DNA of 49,867 nt. Origin: Agathobacter sp. Its GTDB lineage: Bacteria > Bacillota > Clostridia > Lachnospirales > Lachnospiraceae. The notes beneath the pieces were generated by a model that was not told where the DNA came from, ran no database searches, and was given only the letters and a program-made list of their open reading frames with translations. The position numbers were made by a program, and so were the translations under genes. Shown one piece after another: positions 33,638-39,866 of this stretch. How positions within the stretch are numbered: the stretch's first letter is position 1; each line of letters begins with the position of its first letter. The DNA is taken from positions 1 to 49,867 of the forward strand of contig JALEPP010000158.1 of the NCBI GenBank assembly GCA_022767075.1, in the 5' to 3' direction.

Positions 33638-33715
33638 GAAGCATCCGGGTGAAGAGAGTCATACCCCATGGTAGAAGTTCACCTGGTGGACAAGATGACC
33701 CTAGAAAGGAGACAT

Positions 33716-34198
33716 ATGGAACTGGAAATTGAACGCAAATTTCTCATGAGTGGGTTTCCCACAGAGCTTCCTCTTCTTCGCTGTGTTCAAATCGAACAAG
33801 GCTATGTGAGTGTTGACCCGGAGGTGCGCATACATAAAGCAACCAACATGGATACCGGAATCACTAATTATCGTATCACCATGAAGGGGGAGGGCGATTT
33901 AACCAGAGTGGAAATCAAAAACTCTCTGGAAAAGGAATTCTATGAAGAGGCAGTGAAGCTCGTAAAATATCCGATGATTCAGAAGGAATATCGAGCTTAT
34001 GAGATCGGGGAATATATTTTAGAGGTATGTCTGGTGGATCCGGGGACAGAGAATGAATTCTATTACGGAGAGGTGGAATTTCCTTCGGAGAAGGAAGCCA
34101 ATGAATTTGAGCCAATCCCATGTCTGGGAAAGGAAGTAACGCTGAATGCCAATTATAAAATGAAGAATTATTGGTTAAGAACCAGAGCCGACAGGTAA
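33716..34198 (+). CDS. CYTH-domain protein (triphosphate tunnel family)
   Basis: 160 residues from the ATG at 33716, chosen because AAGGAG precedes it and because it places the family motif ExExK at the very start (Glu4-Ile-Glu6-Arg-Lys8). Other tunnel residues are visible in 'VRIHKATNMDTGITNYRITMKGEGDLTRVEI' and 'IQKEYRAYEIGEYILEVCLV...YYGEVEFPSEKEA'. The family hydrolyses triphosphates (thiamine-PPP, inorganic PPPi) or acts as class IV adenylate cyclase; small bacterial members are most often tripolyphosphatases. Its 3' end forms part of a terminator shared with the convergent DUF4317 gene. Confidence 0.85.
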   Translation: MELEIERKFLMSGFPTELPLLRCVQIEQGYVSVDPEVRIHKATNMDTGITNYRITMKGEGDLTRVEIKNSLEKEFYEEAVKLVKYPMIQKEYRAYEIGEYILEVCLVDPGTENEFYYGEVEFPSEKEANEFEPIPCLGKEVTLNANYKMKNYWLRTRADR

Positions 34199-34239: not shown

Positions 34240-35529
34240 TTAGATTTGTGTGTTTACTCCGTTGATGGTAGCATGCTCATTTTCTTCCATAGGAATAACA
34301 AGACATTTCTTGCCGGCGATTTCCTCTGTATGGATTTGGCCGGCTTTTTCCGGTTTTACACGTAGGATGACATCGTAGGTTCTTACTTCTGATTCGTAGG
34401 TGTCCAAAGAGGTCTTGGCCTCAGTCAGCTCATTTTTGGTGGTTTCCAGCTGCTGGCTCTTGTCAGAAAGCTCCTGAGTGAGAAGCTCAACCTGCTCTTC
34501 CAACTGGATTTTTTCCATAACCTGATTGTGCTGTTCGATGGCTTTGGAGTCGATGACATTGGATGCCACCGGTGGTTTATCCCCAAAGGTATCCTGGATG
34601 TGCTTTTCAATCTTGTTAGCTTTATCTTCCGGAATCTCTGCATCTACTAAGAGTTTTTCTAATACTGGTGGCTCCAGGAGAAACTCTTCCTCAGAATCCT
34701 CGTGAACCAGGTTATATTCCTCTACCATATCTTCCAGCTTTTCCTGAATGTTTACCAAAAGATGCTCGGTATCTTCGCTCTCTGTACCAAGAGCATTGCG
34801 GACGATGGAATGGAAGGCCATCTTCTGCTCGGTTGCGGTCCGGGCAGGATCACAGCCTAAGCCGTTGCTCATAAACTCAGAGTGAGGCTCCTTGGTATTC
34901 TTGGTGTAGAACAGACAGCTATGTACATCGGCGCTGCGATCGTTGAAGGCCGGGAATAAAAATGCGGTGTCAGGAGCACCAACCACCCAATCACGAATGC
35001 GAGGCCCAATGCGTTTTTCATCTTCCAGATATCCAAGACCCGGTTTGGAAAGAGCCACAGGACAGATGGCGCAGATTAAGTATTCATATACTACTTCTGA
35101 TTCATCCAGGTCGTCGTTGTCTGAGGTTCTGGTCATAACATCATATACGTCATGGAACATAAGGATCAGGTAGTTCCCACCAGCCTGATCGTAGGTGTCA
35201 ATAATCAAATCATAGTAGGCATCTAGTAGGTTCTCGTCCTCAAGCTTGCTGTCTCTAAGAGCCATAAGAATCTGCTGACGGCCTCCGATTTCCTCTTCTG
35301 CCATAGGAAATTCCAGATCCACCAGATTGTTTCCCTTGGTTCCGGAAAGGGTTTTGTTAGCAATCTCCAGGTACTTGTGGAATTCCTCTTCCTCCAAATT
35401 TAAAAATTTACCGCCGAATTTGCAGACCTTATTGCGGTTGGCATCCACGTAGCAGCCCACCAGACGGGTAAAGGTAACATTTTCTTTTTTGAATCTTCTT
35501 TTTAATTCTAAAATCTCTTTCTTATTCAT
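34240..35529 (-). CDS. DUF4317-family protein
   Basis: 429 residues, starting MNKKEILELKRRFKKENVTFTRLVGCYVD, which is the hallmark of the DUF4317 family found in many Clostridia. No signal peptide or membrane helix, so cytoplasmic. Two thirds is a globular alpha/beta domain ('YLILMFHDVYDVMTR', 'VVYEYLICAICPVALSKPGLGYLEDEKRIGPRIRDWVVGAPDTAFLFPAF'). A coiled coil follows (~330-385: 'EQVELLTQELSDKSQQLETTKNELTEAK') and a short beta C terminus. Function unknown. It is divergent from the TetM-NYN fusion gene with a 76-bp gap, so the two share a promoter region; a good AGGAGG lies before the ATG. Confidence 0.85.
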   Translation of the reverse strand: MNKKEILELKRRFKKENVTFTRLVGCYVDANRNKVCKFGGKFLNLEEEEFHKYLEIANKTLSGTKGNNLVDLEFPMAEEEIGGRQQILMALRDSKLEDENLLDAYYDLIIDTYDQAGGNYLILMFHDVYDVMTRTSDNDDLDESEVVYEYLICAICPVALSKPGLGYLEDEKRIGPRIRDWVVGAPDTAFLFPAFNDRSADVHSCLFYTKNTKEPHSEFMSNGLGCDPARTATEQKMAFHSIVRNALGTESEDTEHLLVNIQEKLEDMVEEYNLVHEDSEEEFLLEPPVLEKLLVDAEIPEDKANKIEKHIQDTFGDKPPVASNVIDSKAIEQHNQVMEKIQLEEQVELLTQELSDKSQQLETTKNELTEAKTSLDTYESEVRTYDVILRVKPEKAGQIHTEEIAGKKCLVIPMEENEHATINGVNTQI

Positions 35530-35605: not shown

Positions 35606-38305
35606 ATGAATGAAATGAAAAAACTAGTGATGGGAATTTTAGCCCATGTGGACGCGGGAAAGACTACGCTGTCGGAGGCGTTACTATATGAGACAGGGCA
35701 GATCAGAACATTAGGAAGAGTGGATCACCAGGATGCCTTCTTAGATACCAATCATTTAGAGAGGGAGCGAGGCATTACCATTTTTTCCAAACAGGCGAGA
35801 ATTGTGTCTTCGGATATGGAGCTGACCCTTTTGGATACTCCGGGACATGTGGATTTTTCTGCGGAGATGGAAAGAACGCTACAGGTGTTGGACTATGGAA
35901 TTCTGGTGGTCAGTGGAACGGATGGGGTACAGGGGCATACCCGTACTCTCTGGAGACTCTTGCAGCATTACCATGTGCCAACCTTTGTCTTTGTGAATAA
36001 GATGGATCTTCAAGGGGCAGAAAAAGAGCGTGTGCTGGAAGAAGTGAAACAGGCTCTTTCCGGAAGCTGTGTGGACTTTACCGGAGAACAGACAGAGCTT
36101 TTGGATGAGCTTTCCATGTGCAATGAGGAGATGATGGAAAGCTATCTGGAATCCGAGAACATTCCGGTGGAAATGATCCAAAGGGCCATTGCAAAAAGAG
36201 AGGTGTATCCGTGCTTCTTTGGATCGGCGTTAAAGCTGGAGGGAATAGACACCCTTTTGAAAGGAATCCGTACCTACAGCTTATCGCCGGATGCCTCAAT
36301 GGAATTTGGAGCAAGAGTCTATAAGATCGGAAGAGATGCCCAGGGAAATCGTCTGACCTACATGAAGGTCACCGGTGGAAAACTCAGGGTGAAGGAGACT
36401 CTTTCTTACGGAGAGCTTTCAGAAAAGGTGGACCAGATAAGACTCTATTCCGGAGAAAAATATGAGGCGGTTCAAGAGGTTACAGCGGGGGAAGTCTGTG
36501 CGGTTACAGGACTTACCGCTACGGTGTGCGGAATGGGAATCGGTGTGGAGCATGCAATGGAGCTTCCGGTGTTGGAGCCTGTTCTTAATTACCGGATTCA
36601 CTTTCCAAAGGAAATCAATCCAAATGAAATGTACCGCAACATGAAGCTTTTGGAGGAGGAGGATCCGCAGCTTCACATTTTATGGAAGGAAGAACTTGGA
36701 GAAATTCATGTGCAGATGATGGGCCAGGTACAGCTGGAAATACTGACACAGCTCATCAAGGAGCGCTTTGGTGTAGTGGTGGTGTTTGACCATGGCAATA
36801 TCGTGTACAAGGAAACCATTGCAAAGCCAGTGGAGGGAGTAGGTCATTTTGAACCACTGCGCCATTACGCGGAGGCTCACGTATATATGGAACCCGGGGA
36901 GCCGGGAAGCGGCATTCAGGTCACCTTGGATTGCAGTGAGGACGAGCTGGCACTGAACTGGCAGAGACTGATTGCTACCCATATCGAGGAAAAGGAGCAT
37001 ACGGGAGTGTTGACAGGCTCTGCACTTACCGACGTGCGTTTCACGGTGGTGGGAGGCCGTGCCCACAACAAGCATACAGAGGGAGGCGATTTCCGCCAGG
37101 CAACCTATCGTGCCATTCGACAGGGGCTCAAATCCACAGAATGCCTTTTGCTAGAGCCAATCTATCGTTTTTGTCTGGAGGTTCCGGTGGATGCAGTAGG
37201 ACGAGCTATGTCAGATATGAGACAAAAATGTGGAGAGTTTGACACTCCGGAGTTTTTTACTGCTCCTACAGGGGAGATGGCTAGACTTGTGGGAACGGTC
37301 CCGGTGTCTACCATGGGAGATTATATGAAGGAGGTGCATGGCTATACGAAAGGTATGGGCCAACTGATGCTCACTCTTCAAGGGTATGACGTATGCCACA
37401 ACAGTGAGGAGGTAATTGCATCCATAGGGTACGACAGTGAAGCGGATACGGCTAACCCAACAGGCTCTGTATTTTGCGGACATGGAGCAGGCTTTGTGGT
37501 GCCTTGGAATCAGGTGCCGGATTATATGCATGTGCCTTATTGCATGGAAAACAGACAGAGGGAAAAGGATGAGGTGGGATTTTCCTACGATGTCACTCAG
37601 GCCATTCAGAGGTCGGAGACACCGAAAAAGACTCAGTCTGCCTATGAATTAGATAAGGAACTGCAACAGATTTATCAAAGGGAATTTGGGGCGAAGAACG
37701 AGGATGATCTGGAAAGAGACCGAAAGAAGTGGAGAAAGACTTCCGGAGGCCGCACCGTGAATGGAAGGGAAATCACTCCTTCAGAGAAGGTCTACAGTGG
37801 AAAATCCACTCCAAGGGGAAAAGATGTGGTACATCATCTGGTGGTAGACGGATACAATGTGATTTTTGCACTGGAGGAATACAAGACCTTGGCTTCTATG
37901 AACCTGGATAGTGCTAAGGGGAAGCTGCTGGATGATTTGGTGGACTATAAGGGGTACAAGCAGTGCAAGGTTACCGTTGTGTTTGACGCCTACAAGAAGA
38001 AGGAACATCCGGGAAGTGAAGAAGACTATCAGGGTATTCGGGTAATCCATACCAAAACGGATGTTACTGCCGATACCTATATCGAGCAGCTGGTACATAA
38101 GCTGGGGCAGAAGGAACAGATTACGGTTGCAACAAATGACGGCTTGGAGCAGCTAACCATTATGGGACAGGGGGCTTTGCGTATGACAGCCGCAAACCTT
38201 AGAGAAGAAATGAAGCTTACAAGAAAAGAGCAGTTGCAAGCATATCAGACCGGGAAAAAAGAAGAGAAGCATACTCTGGGTGAATATATCACGCAAAAAT
38301 CATAG
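35606..38305 (+). CDS. TetM/EF-G-like ribosome GTPase fused to a NYN (YacP/Rae1-like) nuclease domain
   Basis: 899 residues. The first ~640 form a complete translational GTPase of the TetM/TetO (ribosome-protection) type: G1 AHVDAGKTT (13-21), RGITI switch, DTPGHVDF, NKMD and SAL, then domains II-V. In domain IV the TetM loop that carries YSPVSTPADFR reads HNKHTEGGDFR here, so the tetracycline-displacing tip is not conserved. After a charged linker (~650-738) comes a NYN/PIN-like domain from about residue 740: VVDGYNVIF (Asp748), VVFDAYKKK (Asp794), TKTDVTADTY (Asp819, Asp823) and ATNDGLEQ (Asp845), the YacP/Rae1 pattern. Rae1 of Bacillus cuts mRNA in the ribosome A site. The fusion suggests a ribosome-directed endonuclease; this is inference. 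Drug resistance is not supported. Confidence 0.9.
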   Translation: MNEMKKLVMGILAHVDAGKTTLSEALLYETGQIRTLGRVDHQDAFLDTNHLERERGITIFSKQARIVSSDMELTLLDTPGHVDFSAEMERTLQVLDYGILVVSGTDGVQGHTRTLWRLLQHYHVPTFVFVNKMDLQGAEKERVLEEVKQALSGSCVDFTGEQTELLDELSMCNEEMMESYLESENIPVEMIQRAIAKREVYPCFFGSALKLEGIDTLLKGIRTYSLSPDASMEFGARVYKIGRDAQGNRLTYMKVTGGKLRVKETLSYGELSEKVDQIRLYSGEKYEAVQEVTAGEVCAVTGLTATVCGMGIGVEHAMELPVLEPVLNYRIHFPKEINPNEMYRNMKLLEEEDPQLHILWKEELGEIHVQMMGQVQLEILTQLIKERFGVVVVFDHGNIVYKETIAKPVEGVGHFEPLRHYAEAHVYMEPGEPGSGIQVTLDCSEDELALNWQRLIATHIEEKEHTGVLTGSALTDVRFTVVGGRAHNKHTEGGDFRQATYRAIRQGLKSTECLLLEPIYRFCLEVPVDAVGRAMSDMRQKCGEFDTPEFFTAPTGEMARLVGTVPVSTMGDYMKEVHGYTKGMGQLMLTLQGYDVCHNSEEVIASIGYDSEADTANPTGSVFCGHGAGFVVPWNQVPDYMHVPYCMENRQREKDEVGFSYDVTQAIQRSETPKKTQSAYELDKELQQIYQREFGAKNEDDLERDRKKWRKTSGGRTVNGREITPSEKVYSGKSTPRGKDVVHHLVVDGYNVIFALEEYKTLASMNLDSAKGKLLDDLVDYKGYKQCKVTVVFDAYKKKEHPGSEEDYQGIRVIHTKTDVTADTYIEQLVHKLGQKEQITVATNDGLEQLTIMGQGALRMTAANLREEMKLTRKEQLQAYQTGKKEEKHTLGEYITQKS

Positions 38306-38491: not shown

Positions 38492-39028
38492 ATGGATAAA
38501 AAATGGGTTGCTTTGCTACAGAATCAGAATCAACTTTCGAAGGTGATTGAGACCAATGAGTATACCGAGAAGTTTGGGCTTGCGTTGTCCGAACAGGATG
38601 CGCAGCTGATTTTGGATAGCAGAAAGGAAGCTTTACAAGTCCAAAGAAGAGTTGAGTTTGGAGAGGGAATTGCTCTGAAAATCATCCGGGAGTTCTGTGA
38701 TTCGGATTTTATCGACCAGAATAATTATGTGGACACTATTATCCGATTACAGGAGATTTTTTATCTGTATAAGAACGAGATGAGGGATGAGATTACGGAT
38801 GATGAGCTCCTTCATCTTATGAGGGAACAGTTTGATCAGCTCTGCTTTGGGGACCTGGAATATCTGGAAACCACCTGCCTTGCAAATTTTGCCCAGGCAA
38901 TCCGTCTTGGATATGAAGGCTATCACACACCGGACAGAGATGGGGAACACCGGAAGTTTGATCTGCAGGAGCGCTGGAGCTACGATTTATATCAGGAAGC
39001 CTTGAAAAATCTGGGCTGGGGGGAATAA
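38492..39028 (+). CDS. DUF6323-like protein
   Basis: 178 residues, soluble, helical and acidic. The sequence 'YTEKFGLALSEQDAQLILDSRKEALQVQRRVEFGEGIALKIIREFCDSDFIDQNNYVDTIIRLQEIFY' is like the DUF6323 family seen in Clostridia next to a DUF6179 gene; the family call is from memory. No catalytic motif is visible. It is followed by the next gene after one base, so the pair is an operon and the products probably act together. Function unknown. Confidence 0.65.
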   Translation: MDKKWVALLQNQNQLSKVIETNEYTEKFGLALSEQDAQLILDSRKEALQVQRRVEFGEGIALKIIREFCDSDFIDQNNYVDTIIRLQEIFYLYKNEMRDEITDDELLHLMREQFDQLCFGDLEYLETTCLANFAQAIRLGYEGYHTPDRDGEHRKFDLQERWSYDLYQEALKNLGWGE

Positions 39029-39029
39029 C

Positions 39030-39866
39030 ATGAAATACAAAATGGAGGAGCTAGTGCCTGTTGTGGCAAAGCTTGCGGAAGAATATACCGGGGGAGAGAG
39101 TACCTCCATCACCTATGAAAAGGCACAACAGCTTATGGGGGCAGTAGTGTACTGTATCGGTGAGGCAGAAAGAGACCGGGCTTTTTCCTTGTTGGAGCAG
39201 GGCGGCAGGTCTGCGAAAGAGGCATATTATCTTGGACTTGAATGTGTGGAAAGAAAGACGAGAGAAACCTTGGCTTTGTACAATGAGCTTATGATTCATT
39301 TTTGCAGCTATGAAAATGAATGTCTGAACGACACCGTGGTAAAGGGATTGCCGGAGTTTTTCAAGTGGTATGATTGTAGATATGAACCACAGAATACCAT
39401 ACTTACACTAGACTATCCGATACTGGCAGACAATCCGAAACGTTTGGGAATTGACAGAATCCATGATTATGTATTGTGCATACAACTGGAACAAAGGTTT
39501 CTGAACAGATTCTCCCAGAAGTATATTATGGAGGTACTTTCCGGGTACAATAAGGACTACCGGAGCATGATAGACAACTTGTGTGAGGTGGTTCTGGGGA
39601 ATCTGATAGATCATATGCTGGCGGGAAAGGATTTGTCTGCTTCGGTCCTTAATCAGGAGGAATATGAAAGACTACAGGAAATGATTCGGCAGGAGGAATT
39701 GGGAGCCTTACGTGAAAAGTTAAAAAAAGTGATTAACGAAATGGTGGAAAAATACTATGATGGAGATAAGCAGCTTGCCCAATATCTGGGATATGCGGTT
39801 GACAATATTTCCGTTAGGATGAAAACAGTCGCAGATAATGGGAATTTGGTAGGTTATTGGGGTTGA
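39030..39866 (+). CDS. DUF6179-like protein
   Basis: 278 residues, soluble and mostly helical, with no signal peptide. 'EEYTGGESTSITYEKAQQLMGAVVYCIGEAE' and 'FFKWYDCRYEPQNTILTLDYPIL...GIDRIHDYVLCIQLEQRFLNRF' match the DUF6179 type as remembered. It starts one base after the DUF6323-like gene, a pairing that appears conserved. Function unknown; a role in sporulation or cell-cycle timing is sometimes guessed for such Clostridia-only pairs, but nothing here supports it. Confidence 0.6.
   Translation: MKYKMEELVPVVAKLAEEYTGGESTSITYEKAQQLMGAVVYCIGEAERDRAFSLLEQGGRSAKEAYYLGLECVERKTRETLALYNELMIHFCSYENECLNDTVVKGLPEFFKWYDCRYEPQNTILTLDYPILADNPKRLGIDRIHDYVLCIQLEQRFLNRFSQKYIMEVLSGYNKDYRSMIDNLCEVVLGNLIDHMLAGKDLSASVLNQEEYERLQEMIRQEELGALREKLKKVINEMVEKYYDGDKQLAQYLGYAVDNISVRMKTVADNGNLVGYWG

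Follow-up and report, generated by a model that had tools for sequence, protein, structure and literature searches.

A clostridial fusion of an EF-G/Tet-like GTPase and a Rae1-like nuclease appears to stand in for the separate yacP gene

Rae1 (YacP) of Bacillus subtilis is described as a ribosome-associated endoribonuclease that acts on mRNA in the A site and whose loss suppresses an efp defect, and the same source places it in a separate gene that is co-transcribed with yacO/rlmB (PMC6613710). The ribosome binding sites of Tet-type proteins and of EF-G overlap (PMC8161019). A Tet-NYN architecture has been noted in ten clostridial species, and antibiotic resistance was suggested as its role (Atkinson 2015, PMC4342817). 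The same architecture is found in the 49,867 nucleotides of Agathobacter sp. DNA analysed here (contig JALEPP010000158.1; hereafter the window, meaning the whole stretch), where one gene encodes an EF-G/Tet-like translational GTPase followed by a Rae1-like NYN_YacP nuclease and, within its lineage, appears to stand in for yacP. The architecture itself was therefore known; relative to the parts of Atkinson (2015) drawn on here, in which the ten species are filed under Tet, the additions are the wide replacement of yacP, the grouping of the fused GTPases in one clade, the distance between that clade and Tet proteins, and a doubt about the resistance label.

The product of the fusion gene carries the five domains of EF-G ahead of the nuclease in a single open reading frame (ORF; Table 1), as the first-pass annotation had read it. 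Profile searches with both halves, which that annotation had proposed, recovered GTP_EFTU (E = 7.7e-53), EF-G_D2, EFG_III, EFG_IV and EFG_C, and matched NYN_YacP to residues 745-897 at 154.8 bits against a curated cut-off of 24.6. Domains I-V with their G motifs place the protein among the EF2-superfamily translational GTPases. A frame or assembly artefact is ruled out because long frames with NYN_YacP recur in 215 sampled genomes. An alignment of 20 fusions, the window protein among them, shows little or no variation at the core GTPase residues, and a pattern scan of 102 fusions found the P-loop in 102, NKMD in 100, GSAL in 99, and FD[AG], TADxIE and VATxD in 101 each. These 102 were picked beforehand by their TPGH/DTPGH and DGYN motifs, so that the count of 102/102 for those motifs holds by construction and is uninformative.

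The nuclease half shows equally strict conservation, with Asp748, Asp794, Asp823, Asp845 and Glu827 invariant in the 20 aligned fusions as well as in 34 fused and stand-alone domains. The four aspartates had been named in the first-pass annotation; Asp819, also on its list, falls outside the invariant and near-invariant set, so that its "Asp819/823" comes down to Asp823. Its assignment of the domain to NYN/YacP is upheld by comparison with B. subtilis Rae1/YacP (5mq8, 5mq9), which the NYN part matches by sequence (E = 1.4e-18) and which provides the top fold matches to an AlphaFold model of the domain alone (best E = 8e-12, to 5mq9, at 34% identity; predicted local distance difference test score, pLDDT, 86). 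Acidic residues and fold together make the domain a member of the Rae1/YacP group, and the match to the Rae1 fold suggests that the acidic residues cluster. Like Rae1, the fusion usually occurs once per genome; the difference is that its nuclease follows a five-domain GTPase. In a model of the whole protein (pLDDT 76; predicted template modelling score, pTM, 0.57), residues 1-613 align with the ribosome-bound EF-G fold, the comparison having covered residues 1-620, and the stretch 652-739 is unstructured. The corresponding linker measures 70-142 residues in the 102 fusions, with a median of 80.

The first-pass annotation had proposed a survey of the fusion across Clostridia, and the NYN_YacP profile was searched against three samples, drawn from the window's family (150 genomes), order (117) and class (196). 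Fusion status was judged by frame length, with a GTPase match confirmed in the class sample for 74/74 genomes having a NYN frame of at least 300 amino acids (aa) and listed for the family sample; its coverage of the order sample excludes G242 and G182. A NYN_YacP match was present in 358 distinct genomes, weighted to the window's own family (145/358), and lay in frames of at least 800 aa in 215, of 300-799 aa in 14 and of less than 300 aa in 129. The longest class occurs in 26 of the 56 family codes that have a match. Within the family sample, 119 genomes carry a frame of at least 800 aa, four one of 300-799 aa and 12 a short one, and 15 have none. Beyond the class, the GTPase profile matched 21 of 299 genomes in a phylum sample. 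For 15 of them, the kinship to the window's genome extends no closer than the phylum; 12 of the 15 have fusion-sized frames and the other three unfused ones of 651-657 aa, and the fused ORF was confirmed in the eight of the 12 that were fetched.

Hosts among the best 80 loci are mostly Lachnospiraceae, Oscillospiraceae or unclassified clostridia, together with Clostridium, Anaerovorax, Ruminococcus and Desulfosporosinus (the D. acididurans record, locus L102), and the closest kin of the window fusion among them is from Agathobacter; five of the 80 named loci lack a clean fusion ORF by pattern. Most genomes in the window's family have the fusion, which, judged by sequence, appears to be widespread and to be the form that Rae1 usually takes in many clostridia of the gut and elsewhere. 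Two unannotated faecal records listed as bacteriophage, MT835563 and MT835514, contain a stretch matching the end of the fusion (its C-terminal extension and NYN domain), which could be host DNA or a carried gene.

Among the 229 genomes with a NYN frame of at least 300 aa, a clear stand-alone copy occurs in one (G255, 177 aa). A second genome (G039) has a further NYN fragment at a contig edge, beside the long frame, and the remaining second matches are short or weak. The expectation that fusion genomes would lack a separate yacP thus holds for all but one or two of the 229. In the window's own genome (84% complete), the single NYN_YacP match is the fusion. The locus at which yacP would be expected points the same way: in six of ten fusion genomes, the window's own included, rlmB is followed directly by a SigH-type sigma gene without yacP, and in the window's own genome the two frames overlap. 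Four of these six sigma genes were tested and all match SigH models, the other two being named by eye. No nuclease motif was seen in ORFs of at least 70 aa at the rlmB loci of the ten fusion genomes. In the 14 of 20 stand-alone loci viewed, an rlmB-like gene directly adjoins yacP in seven by pattern, and an annotated record has yacP flanked by rlmB and sigH, with cysS, an RNase III-domain gene and thyX preceding it. Taken together, these observations argue that the fusion stands in for yacP in its lineage. A Clostridioides difficile record labelled as a plasmid (NZ_CP149721.1, L224) has the order cysS-rlmB-NYN-sigH-tuf-nusG and therefore looks like chromosomal sequence.

The company of the stand-alone gene, often beside rlmB, which encodes a 23S rRNA methyltransferase, and with an RNase III-domain gene nearby in one record, would also suit an enzyme that processes rRNA or tRNA in ribosome assembly instead of A-site mRNA. 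Atkinson (2015) cites a view that the YacP-like domain acts in rRNA and tRNA maturation (PMC4342817). We regard such a role for the fusion as improbable, since the characterised member of the family, B. subtilis Rae1, is described as a ribosome-associated endonuclease of A-site mRNA (PMC6613710).

The GTPase half lies apart from the classical Tet proteins. All fused halves group together in an 82-row quick tree, with a Shimodaira-Hasegawa-like approximate likelihood-ratio test (SH-aLRT) support of 100 (L036 counted). Their clade is nested in a larger one (also SH-aLRT 100) that takes in unfused proteins whose tip is likewise KHTxGGDFR-like and which have the same extension, of the form CHN..EEVI..SVFC..G..F.V. 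Tet proteins with the tip YSPVSTP and EF-G-like rows fall outside this KHTEGGDFR clade, and the extension, common to fused and unfused KHTEGG proteins, is found in neither. The tree has SH-aLRT support only, and its 49 labelled fusions comprise the window protein, 26 from the genome samples and a random 22 of the 75 named ones; the tree omits L078 and L200, while L043, L172 and L180 gave no row by pattern, L036 is a fusion frame mislabelled by pattern, L122_1 is an unrelated ORF, and the EF-G-like rows were named by sequence and tree position. A 24-protein alignment agrees with the first-pass annotation that HNKHTEG takes the place of YSPVSTP. In this alignment, His487 of the fusion aligns with the tip His of EF-G, whereas the YSPVSTP Tet proteins have Tyr; the His is also present in the Tet-like rows L177, L178 and L181 and so is not unique to EF-G and the KHTEGGDFR clade. 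The tip form [KQVS]HTx[GP][GP]DF[RN] occurs in 101 of the 102 scanned fusions. Among unfused clostridial GTPases, L072-L077, L162-L171, L173 and L174 combine a KHTxGGDFR-like tip with the extension described above; no name was found for this translation-factor clade.

Antibiotic resistance, with a new RNase step added to it, is the role suggested by Atkinson (2015; PMC4342817), and it has some appeal in that the best NCBIfam match of the window protein is tet_protect and that the protein shares with Tet(M)/Tet(O) the EF-G-like five-domain layout and GTPase motifs. A 934-codon Agathobacter rectalis copy is likewise labelled TetM/TetW/TetO/TetS family by NCBI; a Monoglobus copy is labelled translation factor GTPase. 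However, the tet_protect score is 414 bits against a cut-off of 775, tet_protect_M_W gives 256.4 against 1100, and two more fusions and one unfused relative also fail the Tet cut-offs, which the positive control L176 passes. The fusion further differs from Tet(M)/Tet(O) in its KHTEGG tip, EF-G-like tip His, C-terminal extension and added nuclease, and the tree does not place it among the classical Tet rows. A true tet(M) coexists with the fusion in genome G302 (1512 bits against a cut-off of 1420), and Tet-sized frames of 644 aa lie beside the fusion in four more family-sample genomes (G005, G035, G067 and G088). In addition, the fusion gene is usually single, is found in the majority of its family's genomes and has no conserved neighbourhood. 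Resistance was rejected as the first choice on the strength of the cut-offs, the tip, the tree and the presence of tet(M) beside the fusion in G302, in line with the first-pass annotation's view that this is no classic TetM, and we consider it quite improbable.

Nor is the protein EF-G itself, despite sharing domains I-V, fold and tip His with it: the EF-G equivalog TIGR00484 scores 288.7 against a cut-off of 659.4. Three of four fusion genomes list a separate frame of EF-G size (697-718 aa); in the window's own genome, which is 84% complete, the two other frames listed have 271 and 620 aa. From its sequence relationships, the fusion GTPase appears to belong to the KHTEGGDFR clade apart from classical Tet proteins, and the fusion gene looks like a resident translation factor.

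The reading we favour, at about even chances, is that the fusion is the lineage's Rae1 mounted on its own translational GTPase, which would bind the ribosome, the nuclease on its flexible leash then cutting A-site mRNA. The EF-G/Tet-like part would bind the 70S ribosome at the A-site/factor-binding region and hydrolyse GTP. Hydrolysis would then withdraw the GTPase, so that the nuclease on its leash of about 80 residues could sample the emptied A site and cut the mRNA as Bacillus Rae1 does; even across its range of lengths, the linker would in principle be long enough for the nuclease to explore the ribosome. In this way, nuclease would be concentrated locally by the GTPase on chosen ribosomes, probably paused ones with a vacant A site, and GTP hydrolysis could gate the cut. 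Delivery to stalled ribosomes, clearance of the A site and a rescue or stress role, all put forward in the first-pass annotation, are likewise conjectural.

Several observations weigh against this reading. The A site cannot hold domain IV and the nuclease at once, which forces the assumption of a two-step action, and with a disordered linker and a pTM of 0.57 the model gives no position for the NYN domain relative to the ribosome. The gene after rlmB is a different one in four of the ten fusion genomes. Eight stand-alone copies fall among the fusions in the NYN tree, at a weak fork (85/73). Five of 63 class-sample genomes without NYN_YacP have an unfused GTPase that shares the tip and extension, so these two features are not adaptations to carrying the nuclease and the GTPase has a function independent of it; the frequency of such GTPases in genomes with a stand-alone NYN is no different (5/59 versus 5/63, Fisher p = 1). 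Finally, no experimental study of the fusion was among the papers listed in a literature search that had little coverage of subscription papers, the main Rae1 papers included.

The unfused relatives also lend substance to a reading in which two jobs share one chain. Here, the GTPase would do ribosome work of its own, such as A-site clearing or help with translocation or back-translocation, as perhaps in those relatives, and the fusion would simply keep Rae1 near ribosomes without GTP gating. The EF-G-like His487 and a linker that is long, variable and disordered would fit this. Proximity alone explains less well why the fusion has been kept in so many family codes with very few stand-alone copies, and we hold this alternative to be rather unlikely, if a serious one. 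A link between the unfused GTPase and NYN seemed present in the family sample, where it occurs in five of nine genomes with a stand-alone NYN versus none of 15 without (p = 0.003), the test having been chosen post hoc. Three of the 12 short-frame genomes were dropped from this test, namely G042 (adjacent frames), G095 (two contigs) and G068 (Tet-like GTPase only); three of the four negatives (G016, G020 and G128) are less than 90% complete, and the positive G099 has an in-frame stop. An unfused KHTEGG GTPase was defined as a match above about 700 bits (G099: 598), and lower-scoring matches were not counted, whether in genomes with a stand-alone NYN (G402, G387, G419, G431, G288, G303 and G360) or without NYN (G448 and G283). 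G402, with 507 bits and a 729-aa frame, may be a sixth stand-alone-NYN genome with an unfused GTPase. Strict co-occurrence of GTPase and NYN outside the fusion was dropped as a claim, the signal being absent from the class sample.

As to how Rae1 came to be carried by a GTPase, the 69-row NYN tree groups 44 fused domains with the eight stand-alone copies, all from the window's family (95/91), and a single NYN fusion clade is not rejected (approximately unbiased test, p-AU = 0.457). The simplest reading would be one origin of the fusion, with later splitting or a second fusion possible. Fission of the fusion in some Lachnospiraceae is not claimed, given the weak fork, the monophyly that is not rejected, and the position of two copies (L053 and L054) next to rlmB.

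The surroundings of the fusion gene vary. Clustering of neighbours, which included no test for defence genes, found no conserved neighbour among 96 fusion loci, and the broadest clusters (18, 9 and 8 of the 96 loci) lie in mixed positions. A ribosome-borne RNase could, as an argument, stop translation, which would allow for an anti-phage or toxin-like shut-off; with no PADLOC defence model matching the fusion at E 0.01, no conserved neighbourhood and usually one copy per genome, this seems scarcely plausible. A search of the window for an RNA leader gave no Rfam match at gathering scores. Divergent from the fusion lies a DUF4317 gene (34240-35529, reverse strand); a DUF4317-like gene is near the fusion in four of the 96 loci, namely the window and three others, and a DUF4317 gene also lies near it in an Agathobacter record. 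A guess that the stand-alone yacP of L052 also lies beside DUF4317 proved wrong. Downstream (38492-39866, forward strand) is an adjacent pair of uncharacterised genes, DUF6323 and DUF6179 by Pfam. Further upstream, a gene at 33668-34198 (forward strand) encodes a 176-aa protein without a Pfam match at 0.1. Its stretch EIERKFL presumably recalls CYTH proteins.

Table 1. Features of the fusion gene, in coordinates of the window.
Feature	Position	Strand	Evidence
Whole gene: translational GTPase–NYN_YacP fusion, 899 aa	35606..38305	+	ORF and translation, Pfam domains
G domain, residues 8-223; P-loop, DTPGH, NKMD and SAL motifs	35627..36274	+	Pfam GTP_EFTU; key residues invariant or nearly so in 20 fusions
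EF-G domain II, residues 234-305	36305..36520	+	Pfam EF-G_D2
EF-G domain III, residues 324-393	36575..36784	+	Pfam EFG_III
EF-G domain IV, residues 398-510	36797..37135	+	Pfam EFG_IV
Domain IV tip HNKHTEGGDFR, residues 487-497	37064..37096	+	24-protein alignment; conservation in 20 fusions
EF-G domain V, residues 515-600	37148..37405	+	Pfam EFG_C
Conserved C-terminal extension, residues 597-642, CHNxEEVI...SVFCxHGAGFxVxWxxVxxYMH	37394..37531	+	Alignment; pLDDT about 69-87
Variable disordered linker, residues 652-739	37559..37822	+	pLDDT below 50
NYN_YacP (Rae1-like) nuclease domain, residues 743-886	37832..38263	+	Pfam; 5mq8/5mq9 by sequence and fold; separate model
Asp748, invariant acidic residue	37847..37849	+	
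Asp794, invariant acidic residue	37985..37987	+	
Asp823, invariant acidic residue	38072..38074	+	
Asp845, invariant acidic residue	38138..38140	+	

To our knowledge, how Rae1 is recruited to particular ribosomes is an open question. A natural fusion of Rae1 with a GTPase, kept in many families, would offer a direct handle on it, in that it supplies the partner, the catalytic residues and a single deletable gene. The finding also matters for resistome surveys, since an A. rectalis copy is labelled as tetracycline resistance though neither the window protein nor two further fusions reach the Tet cut-offs. Ultimately, and with a probability that we put a little short of even, much of Clostridia may possess a GTP-gated, ribosome-borne mRNA cutter that couples clearing of the A site to destruction of the message, that would have displaced yacP from the rlmB-sigH operon, and that has in part been filed as tetracycline resistance.

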